Source of the DNA: Diacronema lutheri
Lineage: Eukaryota; Haptophyta; Pavlovophyceae; Pavlovales; Pavlovaceae
Length of the DNA: 64,000 nucleotides
Direction of reading: 5' to 3'
Assembly: GCA_019448385.1 (NCBI GenBank)
Contig: JAGTXO010000012.1
Location: forward strand, 124,001-188,000
In this document: positions 2,352-48,767 of the stretch, piece by piece
How the letters are laid out: every line of letters starts with the position of its first letter
How positions within the stretch are numbered: the first letter of the stretch is position 1
Translations under genes and position numbers: made by a program
Notes under the pieces: generated by a model
The model's database searches: none
What the model was told of the DNA's origin: nothing
The model's input: the letters and a program-made list of their open reading frames with translations, nothing else

Positions 2352-4895
2352 TCAGCCTACGTTGCCTGCTGCAGAGCTCGCGAGCAGCTCCTGGAAGATG
2401 AGCTGGTCGACGCAGAAACACTCTGACAGGCGCTCGCGCCCGACGATCGCTACCAACGCCGGTCGCACATCCGAGCTGTCCTGTCGCTGTTGCGCGCGCA
2501 CGAGGGTGGCAGGGCGGCATCGAGGGCAGCGCGTGACCAGCCGTCGCGCGCCCGCTCCTGGCCAGTGGCACATCCATGCGCACGCCCGTGACTCCAAACG
2601 CGCGCGCCGGCGCGCAGCGCGACGGGGCTAAAGCACGTGTTCGCTCGTTGTGAACCATGGCTGAATCGGAAAAGGGCGCGACGCGCGGCGCTGCGACGCA
2701 CCTCATGCCGCGACCTGAGCAGCGTGTAGACGGGCGCAAAGGCCTCGCCCAGTGTCTTCTCGCACCGAGCGTGCAGCGCAACAGCTCGCTCAGCGGCAGA
2801 GTGGCGCGGCTCGAAGCCGTTGCGCGGCGGGAGCGGCGCATCGTCGGGCGGCAGCAGCGGCGTCTCGTCAATGCTCGCGCTCCGCGCCGGCTGCGCGCTC
2901 GTCTCGTCGGCTGCGGTGGCCGCACCAACGGCCACTGCGGGCTTGCGTTGTGGCGGCGGCGTGTGCAGCTGTGCGAGGCAAGGGGACAGGGGGGCAACAG
3001 CACAAGGGCGCGCGCGGGGCAGCGGGCGCGCGCGAGTCGGCGGCAGCCCGCACGTGCGCACCGCGCGCTGTGCGTCCCCGGCCGCTTCGTGCCGAGGGCG
3101 ACCGCGCGCACCTGAGCCGCTGCAAGCTGCGCGAGGCGCTCGGAGTCCTCGTCGGCGGCCGCCGCGTGCACGGCGACGCTGAGCCGAGCGACCGATCTGA
3201 CGCCGGCGCGCGAGCGTGCGTGGGCTCTGCTCGGCAATGGCCCCACCTCCGCCCCCGCCTCCGCCCCTGCCCGCGTGTCTCCCTTCGCCTTCGCCTCGGC
3301 GCCCAAGTCCTCCTGCGCGTGCGAGGCGTAGCCCAAGGAGGGGTGGCAAAAAGGGGCAGGCGAAAAGTCAATGGGGGCAGGCGAAAAGTCAACGGCGGTG
3401 CGCGGTGGGGCACGCGGAGCGCAGCAGCGGCTGCCGAGGCGTTGCATGCGTCACCTCAAAGTCGTCGCTATACTCCGAGGCGTTGCATGCGTCACCTCTC
3501 GATGGCGTGCACGCGTCGCGCGCTCGGCCGCCGAGCGGCTGCGGCGAGAGGGGCGACGATGGGCTCGAGCCGCCGCCCGTGGCCTCCGCGCCGCACACGG
3601 GCGTTTGCGCGCGCACCGCCTGCTGCAACGCCTGCACGTGCGGCAATTGCTGCAGATTGGCGCTCGCCCGTCGCGACGGGGCGCGCGCGGCCGCGCCGCT
3701 CGCAGCGCAGCTGCCGCCGCCTGCCAGAGCGGGCGCGTCGAGGGGCGTGTCGGCGCCTAGCGGCGCACCCGCGCCCGCGTGGCTCGCCTCATCGTGTGCC
3801 GCCGGCTGCTGCGTCTCGTGCGCGCGCGTGGCGAGCAGAGTCGCCTGCCGCTGCGACGAAGTTTCAAACTGCAGCCGGCCAAGCCGCGCGGCGGCGTCCG
3901 TCGACGCCCGCTGCTCGGCCGCGGCTGCAGCGAGCTGCGAAGCGGCCTCGTCCGCGACCGCGAGTTTGCGCGCGCGCATCCGCTGCGCCGGCGTGAGCGA
4001 CGCGACGTTCGCGCTGCGCGGCGTGTGCGCGAGCGAGATCGCGGTCGCGTCGTCGCCGTCTGCGGGCGAACGCGCCGACGAGTCGCGCGCCGAGCCGTCG
4101 GAGGTGGCGGTGCCGCAGCTCGCGCCCACAGCGTACGCGGCACAAGCGGACGCGGCGCGTGCGGGCTGCGGTGGTGGCGGCGGCGTACTGCCGACGAGCG
4201 GCGAGCCTGCCGCGCCGACCAGCGCGCCACGCGCTGCACCCCGTCCAAGCAGCGCCAGGCCGCCCGAGAGGGGTCGACGAACGCGCGCCAACCCAAGGAC
4301 GCGCGAGCTGCCCGCGCCGGGTGTGGCCGCCGACGTCAACGCCGACGCCGCGCTCGGTGTGGGCGAGGTCGCATCCGGCGATCCACCGCCCGGCCCACCG
4401 ACCAGCGCGCAGGCCGGGGGCAGCTGCGGTGGCGCCACCTGCGCGCGCGCGGGCTCGCGCACAGCGATCGCCTGGACCGCCTGCCGCACGATAGGCTCCT
4501 GCAAGATCTCGCCAACCGACGGCCTGTCGTCCGGGTCCTTTGCCAGCATGGCGGCGAGCAGCGCGCGCAATTCGGCCGAGTAGTGCGATGGCGGCGGCTC
4601 GTGCGTCTGCTGGACAATCTTGTAGACGAGACCGAGCAGGTTCGAGCCGTCCCACGCTTGCCTTGTCGAGGAGGCGTGGGGTTGGGATGGGATGGGATGG
4701 GATAGGATGGGATGGGATGGGATGGTGATGAGGCGAAGCAAACACCATGCACCCTAGCCAATCATCCAAAGCCCCGCCGGGAGTGGATGGGATGGGGGGG
4801 GGGGAGGGGAGTGGATGGGAGGAGGGGGAGGGGAGTGGATGGGAGGGGGGGGGGGGCGGAGGGGAGTGGATGCAGGCACCGGCGCCTGCCCACCT

Positions 4896-4928
<33 letters not shown>

Positions 4929-5456
4929 GGGGAGTGGATGGGAGGAGGGGGGGCGGAGGGGAGTGGATGCAGGCACCGGCGCCTGCCCACCTGAGGGGGG
5001 GGGGGGGGGGGGGGAGGGGAGTGGATGGGAGGGGGGGGGCGGAGGGGAGTGGATGCAGGCACCGGCGCCTGCCCACCTGAGGGGGGGGGGGGGGGGGGGG
5101 AGGGGAGTGGATGGGAGGAGGGGGAGGGGAGTGGATGGGATGGGGGGGGGGGGAGGGGAGTGGATGGGAGGGGGGGGGGGGGGGGGGGCGGAGGGGAGTG
5201 GATGCAGGCACCGGCGCCTGCCCACCTGAGGAGGGGGGGGGAGGCGGAGGGGAGTGGATGGGAGGAGGGGGGGCGGAGGGGAGTGGATGCAGGCACCGGC
5301 GCCTGCCCACCTGAGGGGGGGGGGGGAGGCGGAGGGGAGTGGATGGGAGGAGGGGGGGCGGAGGGGAGTGGATGCAGGCACCGGCGCCTGCCCACCTGAG
5401 GGGGGGGGGGGGGGGGGCGGAGGGGAGTGGATGCAGGCACCGGCGCCTGCCCACCT

Positions 5457-5495
<39 letters not shown>

Positions 5496-7895
5496 CGGAG
5501 GGGAGTGGATGGGAGGAGGGGGGGGGGGGGGGGAGTGGATGCAGGCACCGGCGCCTGCCCACCTGAGGGGGGGGGGAGGCGGAGGGGAGTGGATGGGAGG
5601 AGGGGGGGCGGAGGGGAGTGGATGCAGGCACCGGCGCCTGCCCACCTGAGGGGGGGGGGGGGGGGGGGCGGAGGGGAGTGGATGCAGGCACCGGCGCCTG
5701 CCCACCTGAGGGGGGGGGGGGGGGGGGGGGCGGAGGGGAGTGGATGGGAGGAGGGGGGGGGGGGGGGGGAGTGGATGCAGGCACCGGCGCCTGCCCACCT
5801 GAGGGGGGGGGAGGCGGAGGGGAGTGGATGGGAGGAGGGGGAGGGGAGTGGATGGGATGGGGGGGGGGGGAGGGGAGTGGATGGGAGGGGGGGGGGGGGG
5901 GGGGCGGAGGGGAGTGGATGCAGGCACCGGCGCCTGCCCACCTGAGGAGGGGGGGGGAGGCGGAGGGGAGTGGATGGGAGGAGGGGGGGCGGAGGGGAGT
6001 GGATGCAGGCACCGGCGCCTGCCCACCTGAGGGGGGGGGGGGAGGCGGAGGGGAGTGGATGGGAGGGGGGGGGGCGGAGGGGAGTGGATGCAGGCACCGG
6101 CGCCTGCCCACCTGAGGGGGGGGGGGGGGGGGGGGGGCGGAGGGGAGTGGATGCAGGCACCGGCGCCTGCCCACCTGAGGGGGGGGGGGGGGGGGGGGGG
6201 CGGAGGGGAGTGGATGGGAGGAGGGGGGGGGGGGGGGGGGAGTGGATGCAGGCACCGGCGCCTGCCCACCTGAGGGGGGGGGAGGCGGAGGGGAGTGGAT
6301 GGGAGGAGGGGGGGCGGAGGGGAGTGGATGCAGGCACCGGCGCCTGCCCACCTGAGGGGGGGGGGGGGGGAGGCGGAGGGGAGTGGAGGAGGGGGGGGGG
6401 GGAGTGGATGCAGGCACCGGCGCCTGCCCACCTGAGGGGGGAGGAGGGGGAGGGGAGTGGATGGGAGGAGGGGGGGCGGAGGGGAGTGGATGCAGGCACC
6501 GGCGCCTGCCCACCTGAGGGGGGAGGAGGGGAGGGGAGTGGATGGGAGGAGGGGGGGCGGAGGGGAGTGGATGCAGGCACCGGCGCCTGCCCACCTGAGG
6601 GGGGGGGGGGGGGGAGGGGAGTGGATGGGAGGAGGGGGGGCGGAGGGGAGTGGATGCAGGCACCGGCGCCTGCCCACCTGAGGGGGGGGGGGGGGGGGGG
6701 GGGAGGGGAGTGGATGGGAGGAGGGGGGGCGGAGGGGAGTGGATGCAGGCACCGGCGCCTGCCCACCTGAGGGGGGGGGGGGGGGGGGAGGGGAGTGGAT
6801 GGGAGGAGGGGGGGCGGAGGGGAGTGGATGCAGGCACCGGCGCCTGCCCACCTGAGGAGGGGGGGGCGGAGGGGAGTGGATGGGAGGAGGGGGAGGGGAG
6901 TGGATGCAGGCACCGGCGCCTGCCCACCTGAGGAGGGGGGGGGGGGGGGGGGGAGGGGAGTGGATGGGAGGAGGGGGAGGGGAGTGGATGCAGGCACCGG
7001 CGCCTGCCCACCTGAGGGGGGGGGGGGAGGGGAGTGGATGCAGGCACCGGCGCCTGCCCACCTGGGGGGGGGGGGGAGGCGGAGGGGAGTGGATGGGAGG
7101 AGGGGGGGGGGGGGAGTGGATGCAGGCACCGGCGCCTGCCCACCTGAGGGGGGGGGGGGAGGCGGAGGGGAGTGGATGGGAGGAGGGGGGGGGGGGGGGG
7201 GGAGTGGATGCAGGCACCGGCGCCTGCCCACCTGAGGGGGGGGGGGGGGGGGGGGGGGAGGGGAGTGGATGGGAGGAGGGGGAGGGGAGTGGATGGGAGG
7301 AGGGGGAGGGGAGTGGATGGGAGGAGGGGGGGGGGGAGGGGAGTGGATGCAGGCACCGGCGCCTGCCCACCTGAGGGGGGGGGGGGGGGAGTGGATGGGA
7401 GGAGGGGGAGGGGGAGGGGAGTGGATGCAGGCACCGGCGCCTGCCCACCTGAGGAGGGGGGGGCGGAGGGGAGTGGATGGGAGGAGGGGGAGGGGAGTGG
7501 ATGCAGGCACCGGCGTCTGCCCACCTGGGGGGGGGGGGGGGAGGGGAGTGGATGGGAGGGGGGGGGGGGGCGGAGGGGAGTGGATGCAGGCACCGGCGCC
7601 TGCCCACCTGAGCGCGAGCAACTCGTAGAGCACGCAGCCGAGCGCCCACACGTCCGACTTGTACGAATAGGGCCGGTTCTGGCACACCTCGGGCGACATG
7701 TAGAAAGGCGTGCCCACCACCGTCTGCGCCTGCTCGTGCGAGCCGTCGAGCAGCCGGGCGATGCCTGAGCGCGCACGGACCCGCGCCGCGCACGGACGCG
7801 CCAACCAAGGAGACGGCGGTCAGCCCCTTGACGCCGTGCGACACGCATTGCCGCGTCGTCGCGCGCTGCGCGACGTGCCACCCGTAGTCGCCCAG

Positions 7896-7987
<92 letters not shown>

Positions 7988-9049
7988 CGCGCGCGCGCAC
8001 CGTAGTCGCCCAGTTTGACGAGGTGCGCGCGCGTGAGGAAGACGTTCTGCGTCTTGAGGTCGCGGTGCAGGATGCGGCGCTCGTGCGTATGGCCGAGCGC
8101 GAGAGCGAGCTGCGCAAACCAGTCGAGCACCTGCGCCTCGGAGAAGTGCGTGCCAGACTCCTGCGCAAGCAGGCGCACAGGACGGGATGAAGAAACGACC
8201 AAGAGGAGAGAAACGCAGCCAAGGGCGGAGAGAAGCAGCCAGGGGGGAGGGGTGGGGGCAGGATGGCAGAATGGTAGCCATGAGGCCACAGCAGCTCGGT
8301 CGGTGGGTGAGGGCGGCAGGCGGCAGCGGCACACGCTCAGCGCTGCGAGCACGACACGCACGAATAGCCGGCGTTGATGTGCATTCGCGCGCGCGAGTTG
8401 CGCGCGCGCTGCCGAAGCGCAGCTCCGCGCGCAGGTGCGCGCGCGCTGCCGACGAGGCGCTCACCCTTTGCGCGCGAATCACAGACGCGAGGTCGCCACC
8501 CTCGCAAAAGGTCATGACGAGGCAGAGCGAGCCGTCCTTGTCAAGAAAATGCTCGCGGTACCTGCCGACGATCGAGCGACAAGGCGCGGCAGCGGTCGGA
8601 CCAATCGGTGCGAGTGGCGGGAGGAGAGCGGCCGTTGACTCGGGCGGCGCAGAGCTCAAAGCATGGCCTGGGCTGGCCACTGGCCGGGCTGGGCTGCTCG
8701 ACCTGTAGCCAGCTTGCCCCTGCTACGCGGGCCCCTGCGCGCGGCGCGCGTACCTGACAATGCACGGGTGGTCAAGTGAGCGCAACAGGGACACCTCGCC
8801 CGCCGCTTGCGCGCGCTCCGCCTCGTTGTACGCCTGCGTCGCACGGGCAGCGCGCGCGCGGCGTAAGGGCGCGGCCCAGCTCAGAGTGGCCGTGGTGAGA
8901 GCGCGCGCTGTGCGCTGTTGGTGAGCGCCCCGCACCACGCACGCGGCGCGGCGTTTCGGCGCGTGGCAGGGCGAGCGGCGGAGCCGTCAACCTGCAGGTT
9001 GATCGTCTTGAGGCAGTAGAGCCGCCCATCGCGCATGTCTCGCACCAGC
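2352..9049 (-). CDS. NEK-family protein kinase (5' end unresolved)
   Basis: Eight exons join in frame on the minus strand: 9049-8992, 8833-8754, 8561-8465, 8160-8001, 7764-7608, 4661-3455, 2968-2702 and 2486-2352. They give a kinase domain in order: CLKTINLQ (VAIK lysine equivalent), [17 protein letters not shown] (alpha-C Glu), [20 protein letters not shown] (catalytic loop), LGDYG in place of [29 protein letters not shown], then [10 protein letters not shown] and RPSVGEIL. This order matches NIMA-related kinases, which act in cilia and mitosis. A long Ala/Pro-rich tail ends in YSDDFE, and the last exon gives a [12 protein letters not shown] motif like other NEK C-termini. The exon holding the Gly-rich loop and start codon must lie upstream of 9049 and was not found with confidence. 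Two introns carry extreme C/G tracts. Confidence 0.8.
4662..7607 (-). other. 2,946-bp NEK intron filled by a tandem array
   Basis: The donor is CTCAG|GTGGGC at 7608/7607 and the acceptor CGACAAG|GC at 4662/4661. Joining them restores the kinase sequence from VLYELLAL through [10 protein letters not shown], with the split codon AG|G. Other introns with resolved ends in this window are about 70-490 bp, so this one is exceptional. Almost its whole length is the array described separately. If the intron were retained, the exon frame stays open to a stop at 4754 and would append a Pro/Ser-rich tail of roughly 950 residues. Confidence 0.85.
4684..4727. repeat. GGGAT pentanucleotide microsatellite
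   Basis: The + strand carries about nine GGGAT units with one GGATA interruption, close to the acceptor end of the large NEK intron. On the sense strand it is CCCAT-rich and extends the pyrimidine-rich tract before the acceptor. Confidence 0.85.
4780..7612. repeat. C/G-rich minisatellite, about 32 units, each carrying a copy of the intron donor
   Basis: Counting the core GGCGCCTGCCCACCTG by eye gives about 32 copies spaced roughly 45-155 bp. On the sense (minus) strand each unit reads CTCAG, GTGGGCAGGC, GCCGGTGCCTGC, ATCCACTCCCC, then variable C tracts and sometimes CCTCCTCCCATCCACTCCCC. The unit nearest the exon, at 7588-7612, contains the real exon-intron junction. Two copies (near 7050 and 7525) read CCCAG|GTGGGC, and the latter also has one core substitution. 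The core GCAGGC...GCCTGC is a near-perfect inverted repeat. Length variation lies mainly in the homopolymer tracts, as expected from replication slippage. Confidence 0.95.
7896..7986. repeat. Homopolymer run of 91 C (91 G on the sense strand)
   Basis: An uninterrupted run of C on the + strand lies inside the NEK intron at 8000-7765. On each side sits the same 14-bp piece, CCGTAGTCGCCCAG, at 7882-7895 and 8000-8013; the right copy is the end of the exon that encodes LGDY. The exact length may be affected by sequencing error in homopolymers. Confidence 0.9.
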
Positions 9050-9494
9050 CTGCGCCGTAAGATGCCGCATTGTGTGCGCGCGTGCGAGCGGGCATGGTGA
9101 GACTGCGCCGCGGCGCGGGCGACAAATGTCAAGCGCCGTTGCCCAGCTGTTGAGCGCATCGCAGATGCACGCTCGCACTGTGGCTGCGCGGTAAATGGCA
9201 GCCGCGCGCCGCAAAGGCGCCCCGTGTCCAATCAGCCGAGGGCGCAGCGCGTTGAGAGCGCGGACCAGACGGTGCCATGATGCCCCCGGCCAACACGCCG
9301 GAGGGTCTCATAGCTCTCCATGCCAGTGCGAGCCCAGCCGCGACCAGCCCACGCTGTCGCCGACCTTGCCGGCCTGCTGGCCTGCGGGTAAAAAGATTTT
9401 CAGAATCGATCGCGGTGCGGACAATATGGCGGCGCACTTCTTGGGTTTTTGAATTTCGCGGATCTTGGGCTTGGGCCTCGCATCGCTGCCCGTC
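9050..9494. other. NEK 5' region / ClpB 3' flank, no exon resolved
   Basis: This stretch lies between the first resolved NEK exon and the ClpB stop codon. It should contain the NEK promoter, start codon and the Gly-rich loop exon. A minus-strand run QQLGNGA near 9135-9155 resembles the start of a glycine loop, but I could not join it in frame to the next exon with standard splice sites. The part around 9390-9460 is less GC-rich than its surroundings. Confidence 0.4.
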
Positions 9495-13691: not shown

Positions 13692-13825
13692 TTGGCCTTG
13701 GAGGACTGAGAGTCCTCTCAAAGGTGCAGGAGAGCACCTTTGGCGCCGGAGGGCGTCTTGGCCTTGGAGGACTGAGAGTCCTCTCAAAGGTGCAGGAGAG
13801 CACCTTTGGCGCCGGAGGGCGTCTT
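13692..13825. repeat. 66-bp tandem duplication with two hairpins per unit
   Basis: Two essentially identical 66-bp copies begin at 13692 and 13758. Each contains AGGACTgagAGTCCT and AAGGTGCaggagaGCACCTT, two short inverted repeats, followed by GGCGCCGGAGGGCGTC. They lie 170-300 bp downstream of the EF-hand stop codon, so may be in its 3' UTR, just before the transposon. No coding potential is convincing here. Confidence 0.85.
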
Positions 13826-47603: not shown

Positions 47604-48611
47604 ATGGGCGCCGCGCACCGCACGACGATGCACGGGGCGCGGTGCGTCGTGCTCGTGCTCGTGCTCGTGCTCGCTTTGCCGGTTGCGCTGAAAGACACAG
47701 GAGCGCCCGTCGCATCGCTGGTGCCACCCGTGCCGGGCGTGCCGCGTCCCGTGGTCGTGATGGTCCTCAACAGCGCATACACGAGGGTGTTCGAGAACTT
47801 CATACGCGCGCCTGGCGCGCACCACCTGGCAGCGTGGGAGACGCACATCATCTGCACGGACAGAGCGACGGCTGTATCACTCGCCAAGCTGGGCTGGAGA
47901 TGTCAGGACACGGTGAAGACCGGCCGAAGCGCCGCGCAGGTGTACACGCGGCGGATCCCGTACGTCGCCCACCTCGTCCACCTGGGTCGGGACGTGCTCA
48001 TCACGGACGTTGATGCCATCTGGCTGGGAGATCCGCTGCCTGACATCATGGCCACGCAAGCGGGCATCATCGGCAGCCGCGGCAGGTCGCCACACCTCGA
48101 CTGGGGCGCGTCCTTGTGCATGGGCTTCATCTTCTTCCGCGGCTCCGACCCGCTCGTGCGCGCGGCGATGCCCGTGCTCACCGAGCCGATGAGGGAAGAC
48201 CAGACGGATTTCAACCACAACATGCAGCGCGAGCGGCTTGTGTGGGACGAGGGGCGCGTGCGCTTTGTCGACTCGATCGACACGAGCTTCGGCACGCTGC
48301 GCCCGAAGAATGCGAATGCGGGCCATGCCGGCCTGCGCGTCGCGATGCTTCCGCACAAGAGCTACGTGCGCATATGCGAGGACAAGGTGGATTATTCGAC
48401 GGTCATCATCGCGCATTGTCATAGCCGCGGCAAGCGGGCGCATCTCAAGGTCCAAAGTCTCGGCGCGAAGAACCTGTGGTACATCCCGGAGAAAGGCCGA
48501 CCGGACATCGACCCGCATCCGCCCATGCCGCAACCGGGTACGGCGCGGTGGAGCGCCTTCGTTGCGCAACAGCGCGCGCCGGCGTCCAACGCTAGCGCGC
48601 CATCTCCCTAA
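47604..48611 (+). CDS. GT77-like nucleotide-diphospho-sugar transferase
   Basis: Single exon of 335 residues. A signal anchor near the start (RCVVLVLVLVLALPVALKD) predicts a type II Golgi protein. VVVMVLNSAYTRVFENFI opens the catalytic domain. The DxD-type metal site is LITDVDAIWLGDPL; WGASLCMGFIFFRGSD, REDQTDFNHNMQ and IIAHCHSRGKRAHLK follow, the order of the nucleotide-diphospho-sugar transferase domain (GT77, relatives of plant RGXT/RRA). Such enzymes add xylose, galactose or arabinose to glycans. The last 24 residues are encoded by the first unit of a 79-bp tandem repeat that continues past the stop codon. Confidence 0.75.
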   Translation: MGAAHRTTMHGARCVVLVLVLVLALPVALKDTGAPVASLVPPVPGVPRPVVVMVLNSAYTRVFENFIRAPGAHHLAAWETHIICTDRATAVSLAKLGWRCQDTVKTGRSAAQVYTRRIPYVAHLVHLGRDVLITDVDAIWLGDPLPDIMATQAGIIGSRGRSPHLDWGASLCMGFIFFRGSDPLVRAAMPVLTEPMREDQTDFNHNMQRERLVWDEGRVRFVDSIDTSFGTLRPKNANAGHAGLRVAMLPHKSYVRICEDKVDYSTVIIAHCHSRGKRAHLKVQSLGAKNLWYIPEKGRPDIDPHPPMPQPGTARWSAFVAQQRAPASNASAPSP

Positions 48612-48767
48612 CCCGGGTACGGCGCGGTGAAGCGCCTTCGTTGCGCAACAGCGCGCGCCGGCGTCCAACGCTAGCGCGCCATCTCCCTAACCCGGGTACG
48701 GCGCGGTGAAGCGCTTTCGTTGCGCAACAGCGCGCGCCGGCGTCCAACGCTAGCGCACCATCTCAAG
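48534..48767. repeat. 79-bp tandem repeat, three units, starting inside the GT77 gene
   Basis: Units start at 48534, 48613 and 48692 and differ at only a few positions. The first is coding and includes the stop codon, the other two are in the 3' flank. After the third unit the sequence CTCAAGGTCCAAA repeats a piece from inside the gene (near 48444), suggesting an unequal exchange junction. A run of 14 A follows at about 48773. Confidence 0.9.

Follow-up and report, generated by a model that had tools for sequence, protein, structure and literature searches.

The sixth intron of a NEK1-like kinase gene of the haptophyte Diacronema lutheri contains 32 tandem copies of a 30-nucleotide (nt) core, GTGGGCAGNCGCCGGTGCCTGCATCCACTC, which begins with the donor sequence GTGGGC of the intron itself. 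The gene lies on the minus strand of a 64,000-nt stretch of contig JAGTXO010000012.1 (positions 124,001 to 188,000, or C6:124001-188000), which we call the window. Whatever use is made of its internal sites, the array is probably a minisatellite of the type known in amphioxus as a mirage, one whose growth is splice-neutral. What is unusual in it is the number of these sites (31), the zero-length exon between acceptor and donor, and the strong pyrimidine tract before every internal CAG. The readings of the array weighed below overlap, and their probabilities do not sum to one.

Anatomy of the array in intron 6

The exon model of the host gene is based on homology and reading frame rather than on RNA. 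The first 296 residues of the inferred protein match the Pfam family Pkinase (4.7e-63), and the best solved-structure match of the kinase is NEK1 (4apc, 1.4e-82). The original prediction had placed the array in a kinase gene, between exon 7764-7608 with donor 7607 and the acceptor at 4662; the phase-2 join of these elements indeed gives an uninterrupted kinase domain. The intron is 2946 nt long; the remaining five inferred introns measure 216, 158, 192, 304 and 236 nt (mean 221). The features are as follows.

3389..9321, minus strand: NEK1-like kinase gene, seven inferred exons, 626 amino acids, start ATG assumed
9321-9266, 9049-8992, 8833-8754, 8561-8465, 8160-8001, 7764-7608 and 4661-3389, minus strand: inferred exons
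4662..7607, minus strand: intron 6, 2946 nt, phase 2, CTCAG/GTGGGC ... GACAAG/GCAAG
4779..7612, minus strand: tandem array of 32 cores, 31 full units (50-149 nt) and a last partial unit (4893-4779)
7612-7608, minus strand: exon bases CTCAG inside the array
4893..7525, minus strand: internal composite sites (31), GTGGGC directly preceded by a C tract and CTCAG (29) or CCCAG (2)
4662..4778, minus strand: intron tail outside the array, with CCATC repeats, a TAG at about 4756 in the read-through frame and the terminal acceptor GACAAG/G

The core copies run from donor 7607 to donor 4893. They are identical in 31 of 32 cases, and the remaining one differs by a single change: position N of GTGGGCAGNCGCCGGTGCCTGCATCCACTC is G in 31 copies and A in the copy at donor 7524. 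As had been predicted, the real exon-intron junction forms the first copy, with the intron starting right after the exon end CTCAG. In the internal copies a C tract and CAG are joined directly to GTGGGC with no exon between, giving 31 composite AG/GT sites; both this fused layout and the predicted number of about 32 tandem acceptor-donor units in one kinase intron agree with our count. The further claim that every unit reads CTCAG followed by GTGGGC holds for 30 of the 32 cores (the exon end and 29 internal copies), while the cores at 7524 and 7061 are preceded by CCCAG. The donor-to-donor units (n=31) are 50-149 nt long with a median of 84, and the exact lengths of their C runs, which derive from an assembly, are the least certain part of this anatomy. 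Of the 65 AG dinucleotides in the intron, 31 are those of the composite sites and 32 lie within the cores, one per core; the last two belong to a TAG and to the terminal AAG.

The array is no product of chance: the minus strand of the window holds 30 occurrences of CTCAGGTGGGC and the plus strand none, where independent bases would give about 0.1 on the two strands together. The 20-nt junction sequence CTCAGGTGGGCAGGCGCCGG has at least 30 exact matches in the assembly (43,492,796 bases in 103 contigs were scanned, and genome-wide repeat counts are lower bounds). All of them are inside the kinase array, and the mirror control gives 0. Introners are mobile intron families with related copies at many unlinked loci; this origin is rejected, as the exact matches all fall within this one array.

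An error of assembly, in copy number or in the whole array, is very improbable. Assemblers struggle with repeats and C runs, and the C-run lengths do differ between units. However, variants outside the homopolymers also differ between units, and the published assembly of strain NIVA-4/92 (43,502,671 bp, 103 contigs, 73.25% GC) is described as a PacBio assembly, made from reads of 3 kb or more with a theoretical coverage of x368 and polished with Illumina data (PMC8379373).

Quality and possible use of the internal splice sites

The internal donors are identical to the real donor across the 30-nt core in 30 of 31 cases, and from -5 to +30 in 29 of 31. The internal acceptors have a pyrimidine fraction at -24 to -4 of 0.95-1.00 (31/31), compared with 0.48-0.71 in the six inferred acceptors of the gene, and of 61 further AGs in the part of the gene before the array, none reaches 0.8. 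The nearest A upstream of each internal acceptor is 22-52 nt away (median 30, all 31 sites). The terminal acceptor of the intron is AAG, while the other five inferred acceptors are CAG. The internal sites thus appear competitive by pyrimidine content, which is a crude measure. The internal AGGT sequences would allow use as both 5' and 3' site, as in splice sites of the tandem dual-specific type.

Complete use of the internal sites, in any order, would by the layout of the units lead to one and the same mRNA, and each complete internal splice would restore the same join, in keeping with the original prediction. Incomplete use would have other consequences. A donor used without its acceptor would keep the frame at 12 of the 31 sites and shift it at 19, with no stop inside any unit (31/31). 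An acceptor used without a later donor would read into exon 7 at none of the 31.

Recursive use of the internal sites is plausible on these features. As the sequence of the internal acceptors is more promising than that of the terminal GACAAG, we expect the intron to be removed stepwise at least now and then. That the intron is mostly removed in many recursive steps of 50-149 nt is a stronger claim, which we consider unlikely. Its rationale is that each new acceptor is transcribed ahead of the weaker-looking terminal one. It draws on the higher pyrimidine content of the internal acceptors relative to the six inferred real ones, the AAG of the terminal acceptor against CAG in the other five, and the match of the internal donors to the real donor. 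An acceptor abutting a donor within the intron is also found at all 31 sites (CAG/GTGGGC), and ratchet points of Drosophila are described as such juxtaposed acceptors and donors (PMC8605326). However, most units are shorter than the other introns of the gene (158-304 nt) and may be too short to be spliced out, pyrimidine content by itself is a crude guide, and the host spliceosome may not take pure C tracts. In amphioxus, mirages rich in AG/GT signals reportedly leave regular splicing undisturbed (PMC3087553). If the intron were nevertheless removed in this way, a possibility we rate just as low, up to 32 small splicing reactions in very many orders would give a single mRNA, array length would set the speed or reliability of kinase transcript maturation, and splice neutrality would let arrays grow at junctions in a GC-rich genome.

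The opposite case, in which the internal sites are never used and the spliceosome pairs 7607 with 4662 only, is doubtful, though somewhat less so than the many-step route. Recent expansion or homogenisation would make the cores uniform with no selection acting on splice sites, and AG/GT is no better conserved than the remainder of the core. But a rule that accepts the real donor should also take the 29 of 31 internal donors identical to it over -5 to +30. One way to hide these donors, masking by a hairpin, finds no support: a 45-base unit folds with the donor paired at -17.5 kcal/mol, yet the z-score is -1.06, shuffled sequences do equally well in 33 of 200 cases, and values of -10.6 to -19.7 kcal/mol are obtained at the gene's six inferred donors.

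Use of internal donors without their acceptors would place whole units in the mRNA and a proline-rich insert in the kinase. The array is open in all three frames, 12 of 31 internal donors keep the frame, and units of the IFI6 minisatellite are reported to act as donors (PMC4526556). Against this, the insert would fall within the conserved kinase domain and 19 of 31 donors would shift the frame, and we regard such slippage as improbable.

Origin and growth of the array

A genome search for kinases (121 matches listed, 150 of 179 candidates scored) identifies C71:1116707-1117398 as the closest paralog by identity among the matches listed, with 63% over the exon before the intron site and 43% after it. 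Intron 6 is matched in position and phase by an intron of this paralog (LSLR/HAFD vs LALR/QAWD); the paralog intron is 365 nt long and contains no CAGGT. The 14 non-self matches that rank above it cross the intron site in one open stretch, and among the matches ranked below those 14 the intron inspection covered the C71 paralog. Because the C71 paralog has a plain intron at the same position and phase, we consider that the array inflated an existing, old intron and that the repeat did not create it; an intron arising de novo by repeat expansion is rejected on this ground. The core and the paralog intron have one 10-mer in common, GCGCCGGTGC.

The paralog also bears on whether the array is an exon instead of an intron. 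No frame of the array contains a stop, and the length of intron 6 is divisible by 3. However, the read-through frame reaches a TAG about 32 codons ahead of exon 7, the kinase relatives continue without an insert, and the C71 paralog has an intron here. Unit lengths show no sign of a coding frame, as only 7 of 31 are multiples of 3. Together, the TAG, the unit lengths and the paralog intron lead us to reject a coding array, whose probability is close to nil.

The repeat spans the exon-intron boundary as a mirage does, though weakly, reaching 5 bases into the exon, and its units carry the AG/GT signals of a mirage (31 internal AGGT sites). The left edge of the array is at the junction, and the 5 exon bases CTCAG are common to the units, which makes an initial duplication of the junction likely. 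Once the C runs are collapsed, 20 types can be told apart among the 31 full units and the partial one, and types L, M and N recur in order (LMN, MNL). The longest repeated run of unit types is 3. This suggests, at modest strength, block duplication of internal units, which is ordinary minisatellite turnover. The predicted growth by duplication of exon end plus intron start thus stands as the likely start of the array, while later growth looks like turnover of internal blocks.

We infer the following route and its neutrality. A tandem duplication starting at or beside the exon-intron junction would have swelled the old intron of the NEK1-like gene to 2946 nt, and later growth would have proceeded by unequal exchange or slippage within the C-rich repeat. 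Each unit ends with a C tract and CAG and the next starts with GTGGGC, so an internal site could act as acceptor and then as donor. Since any complete use would yield an identical mRNA, array growth would be nearly neutral for the protein, and this would explain how 32 units are tolerated inside a conserved kinase domain.

A search of the genome for three pyrimidine-preceded CAGGT sites 60-90 nt apart gives 17 matches and a mirror control of 0. Fifteen are in the kinase array and two are in a second composite array on contig C31.

Donors C31:82391, 82314, 82229 and 82151, minus strand: second composite array, four units, in locus L042 (C31:80300-84300)

In this array the exon end, a donor GTGAGG and a G run are repeated. 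Copies one to three agree in all 39 bases that precede the donor, the fourth in 12. Peptides of the locus match ShK (1.7e-08; this is an upstream ShK, distinct from the junction one) as well as a 2OG-Fe(II) oxygenase domain (1.3e-11), and we infer that these pieces form one gene.

Several points weigh against the mirage-type reading of the kinase array. Only 5 exon bases are shared, and the CAG among them is expected at many splice sites, which makes an origin from the junction harder to see here than at C31 with its 39 bases. The block-duplication signal is modest, since 34 of 2000 shuffles equal the run of 3. Two further composite patterns searched in the genome show no excess (2 matches, both on C36, vs 14 in the control; 1 vs 2), and such arrays are therefore not frequent.

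CAGGTG arrays were also picked from genome matches and inspected at 13 loci, one of which, L018, clearly has the order coding, array, coding; the coding score is crude, and the other 12 were judged by eye.

C8:48551-48375, minus strand: array of an 11-bp unit CAGGTGCA.. repeated 17 times, containing CAGGTG, between two reading frames (L018)

The downstream frame of L018 matches PhyH (6.8e-12) and the upstream frame has no Pfam match. The array looks like a donor minisatellite. The scan totals for CAGGTG arrays (83 and 97 vs 48 and 25 in the control) are overlapping matches of a few arrays and provide no test. One junction array among 13, together with the unenriched composite patterns, argues against a general rule. 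At L010 (C47, about 190784-194420, plus strand) there is a long minisatellite whose spacing is 36 bp and which contains 63 CAGGTG sites. Within the window, tandem repeats are also present at 13692-13825 (66 bp x 2.0, 100% unit identity) and 48534-48764 (79 bp x 2.9, 98% unit identity).

A smaller duplication of a junction is found in the intron preceding the array.

7882..8013, minus strand: small junction duplication in intron 5

The 14-nt sequence CTGGGCGACTACGG, made of 13 exon bases and the first intron base, is at 8013-8000 and again at 7895-7882, and a run of 91 G (7986-7896) sits between the two copies. At the loci selected for their arrays (L009-L021, L041 and L042), 13 of 62 G/C runs of at least 15 are flanked by a direct repeat of at least 12 nt, vs 0.81 from mixed flanks. 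Four of these 13 are in L042, three of them in the C31 array itself. In a less selected set (the window except for the NEK array runs, plus L022-L024 and L027-L040) the count is 1 of 7 vs 0.0, and that one is kinase intron 5. The sample is small and mostly selected, and it does no more than suggest that tandem duplication in this genome may start from G/C runs. The loci at which direct repeats flank long runs are L009, L011, L013, L014, L018, L020 and L042.

Comparison with known systems

The original prediction held that nothing of the kind had been described. This does not stand, as amphioxus mirages (PMC3087553, PMC3902484), UBC (PMC10809524) and IFI6 (PMC4526556) all precede it. For a zero-exon composite array in a haptophyte, our literature searches, with most subscription papers beyond reach, returned no report. 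The amphioxus mirages are described as minisatellite-like tandem duplications of the exon-intron boundary in Adh3, globins and TnC, with similar repeats in PGBD5. Many of their units carry AG/GT, and Adh3 data and globin reverse-transcription PCR are said to suggest undisturbed regular splicing (PMC3087553, PMC3902484). The kinase array resembles them in its junction-based tandem units with AG/GT signals. Reported mirage units measure 10-72 bp in Adh3 and 150-160 bp in globins, and BflGb6 has 3-6 of them; these units include exon sequence, and length instability is reported. In contrast, the kinase array has 32 copies, 5 exon bases and an acceptor abutting the donor, and is known from one assembly.

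In human UBC and further genes with repeats, Duan et al. (2024) report dual-specific AGGT sites in tandem, used as both 5' and 3' site, and argue that repeats with AGGT are tolerated and less harmful since expansions can be spliced out (PMC10809524). The kinase array has in common with UBC the tandem AGGT that would be usable as both site types. The UBC units, however, are described as 228-nt coding monomers whose copy number alters the product and whose use is demonstrated, while the kinase units are non-coding and uneven, and their complete use would leave the mRNA unchanged. In IFI6 (6-16), minisatellite units are reported to act as alternative donors (PMC4526556, citing Turri 1995); this is described for donors, and alternative donors there change the mRNA. 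The PhyH-like 11-bp array at L018 is closer to IFI6 than the NEK array is.

Ratchet points of Drosophila share with the kinase sites an acceptor joined directly to a donor inside an intron. The recursive introns described there are long, such as one of about 50 kb in kuz, which has two ratchet points, and one of about 73 kb in Ubx (PMC8605326), whereas the kinase intron is 2.9 kb with 31 sites 50-149 nt apart and is known from sequence alone. For the stwintrons of Lipomyces, donor duplication within an existing intron has been proposed, with removal in one step or consecutively (PMC7138796). These are reported as few nested introns verified by reverse-transcription PCR; the kinase array consists of many near-identical units read only from the genome.

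If the internal sites are used, the array is a natural test of which of tens of near-equal donors and acceptors a spliceosome picks when the choice does not alter the mRNA; if they are idle, the question is how good-looking sites get ignored. In either case it offers a route by which an intron can reach about eight times the length of its paralog (2946 vs 365 nt), probably with little cost to the protein, and junction-spanning minisatellites, known from chordates, would now extend to a haptophyte. The kinase array is a variant of this known type, non-coding and in a haptophyte, in which the acceptor abuts the donor in 31 internal copies.

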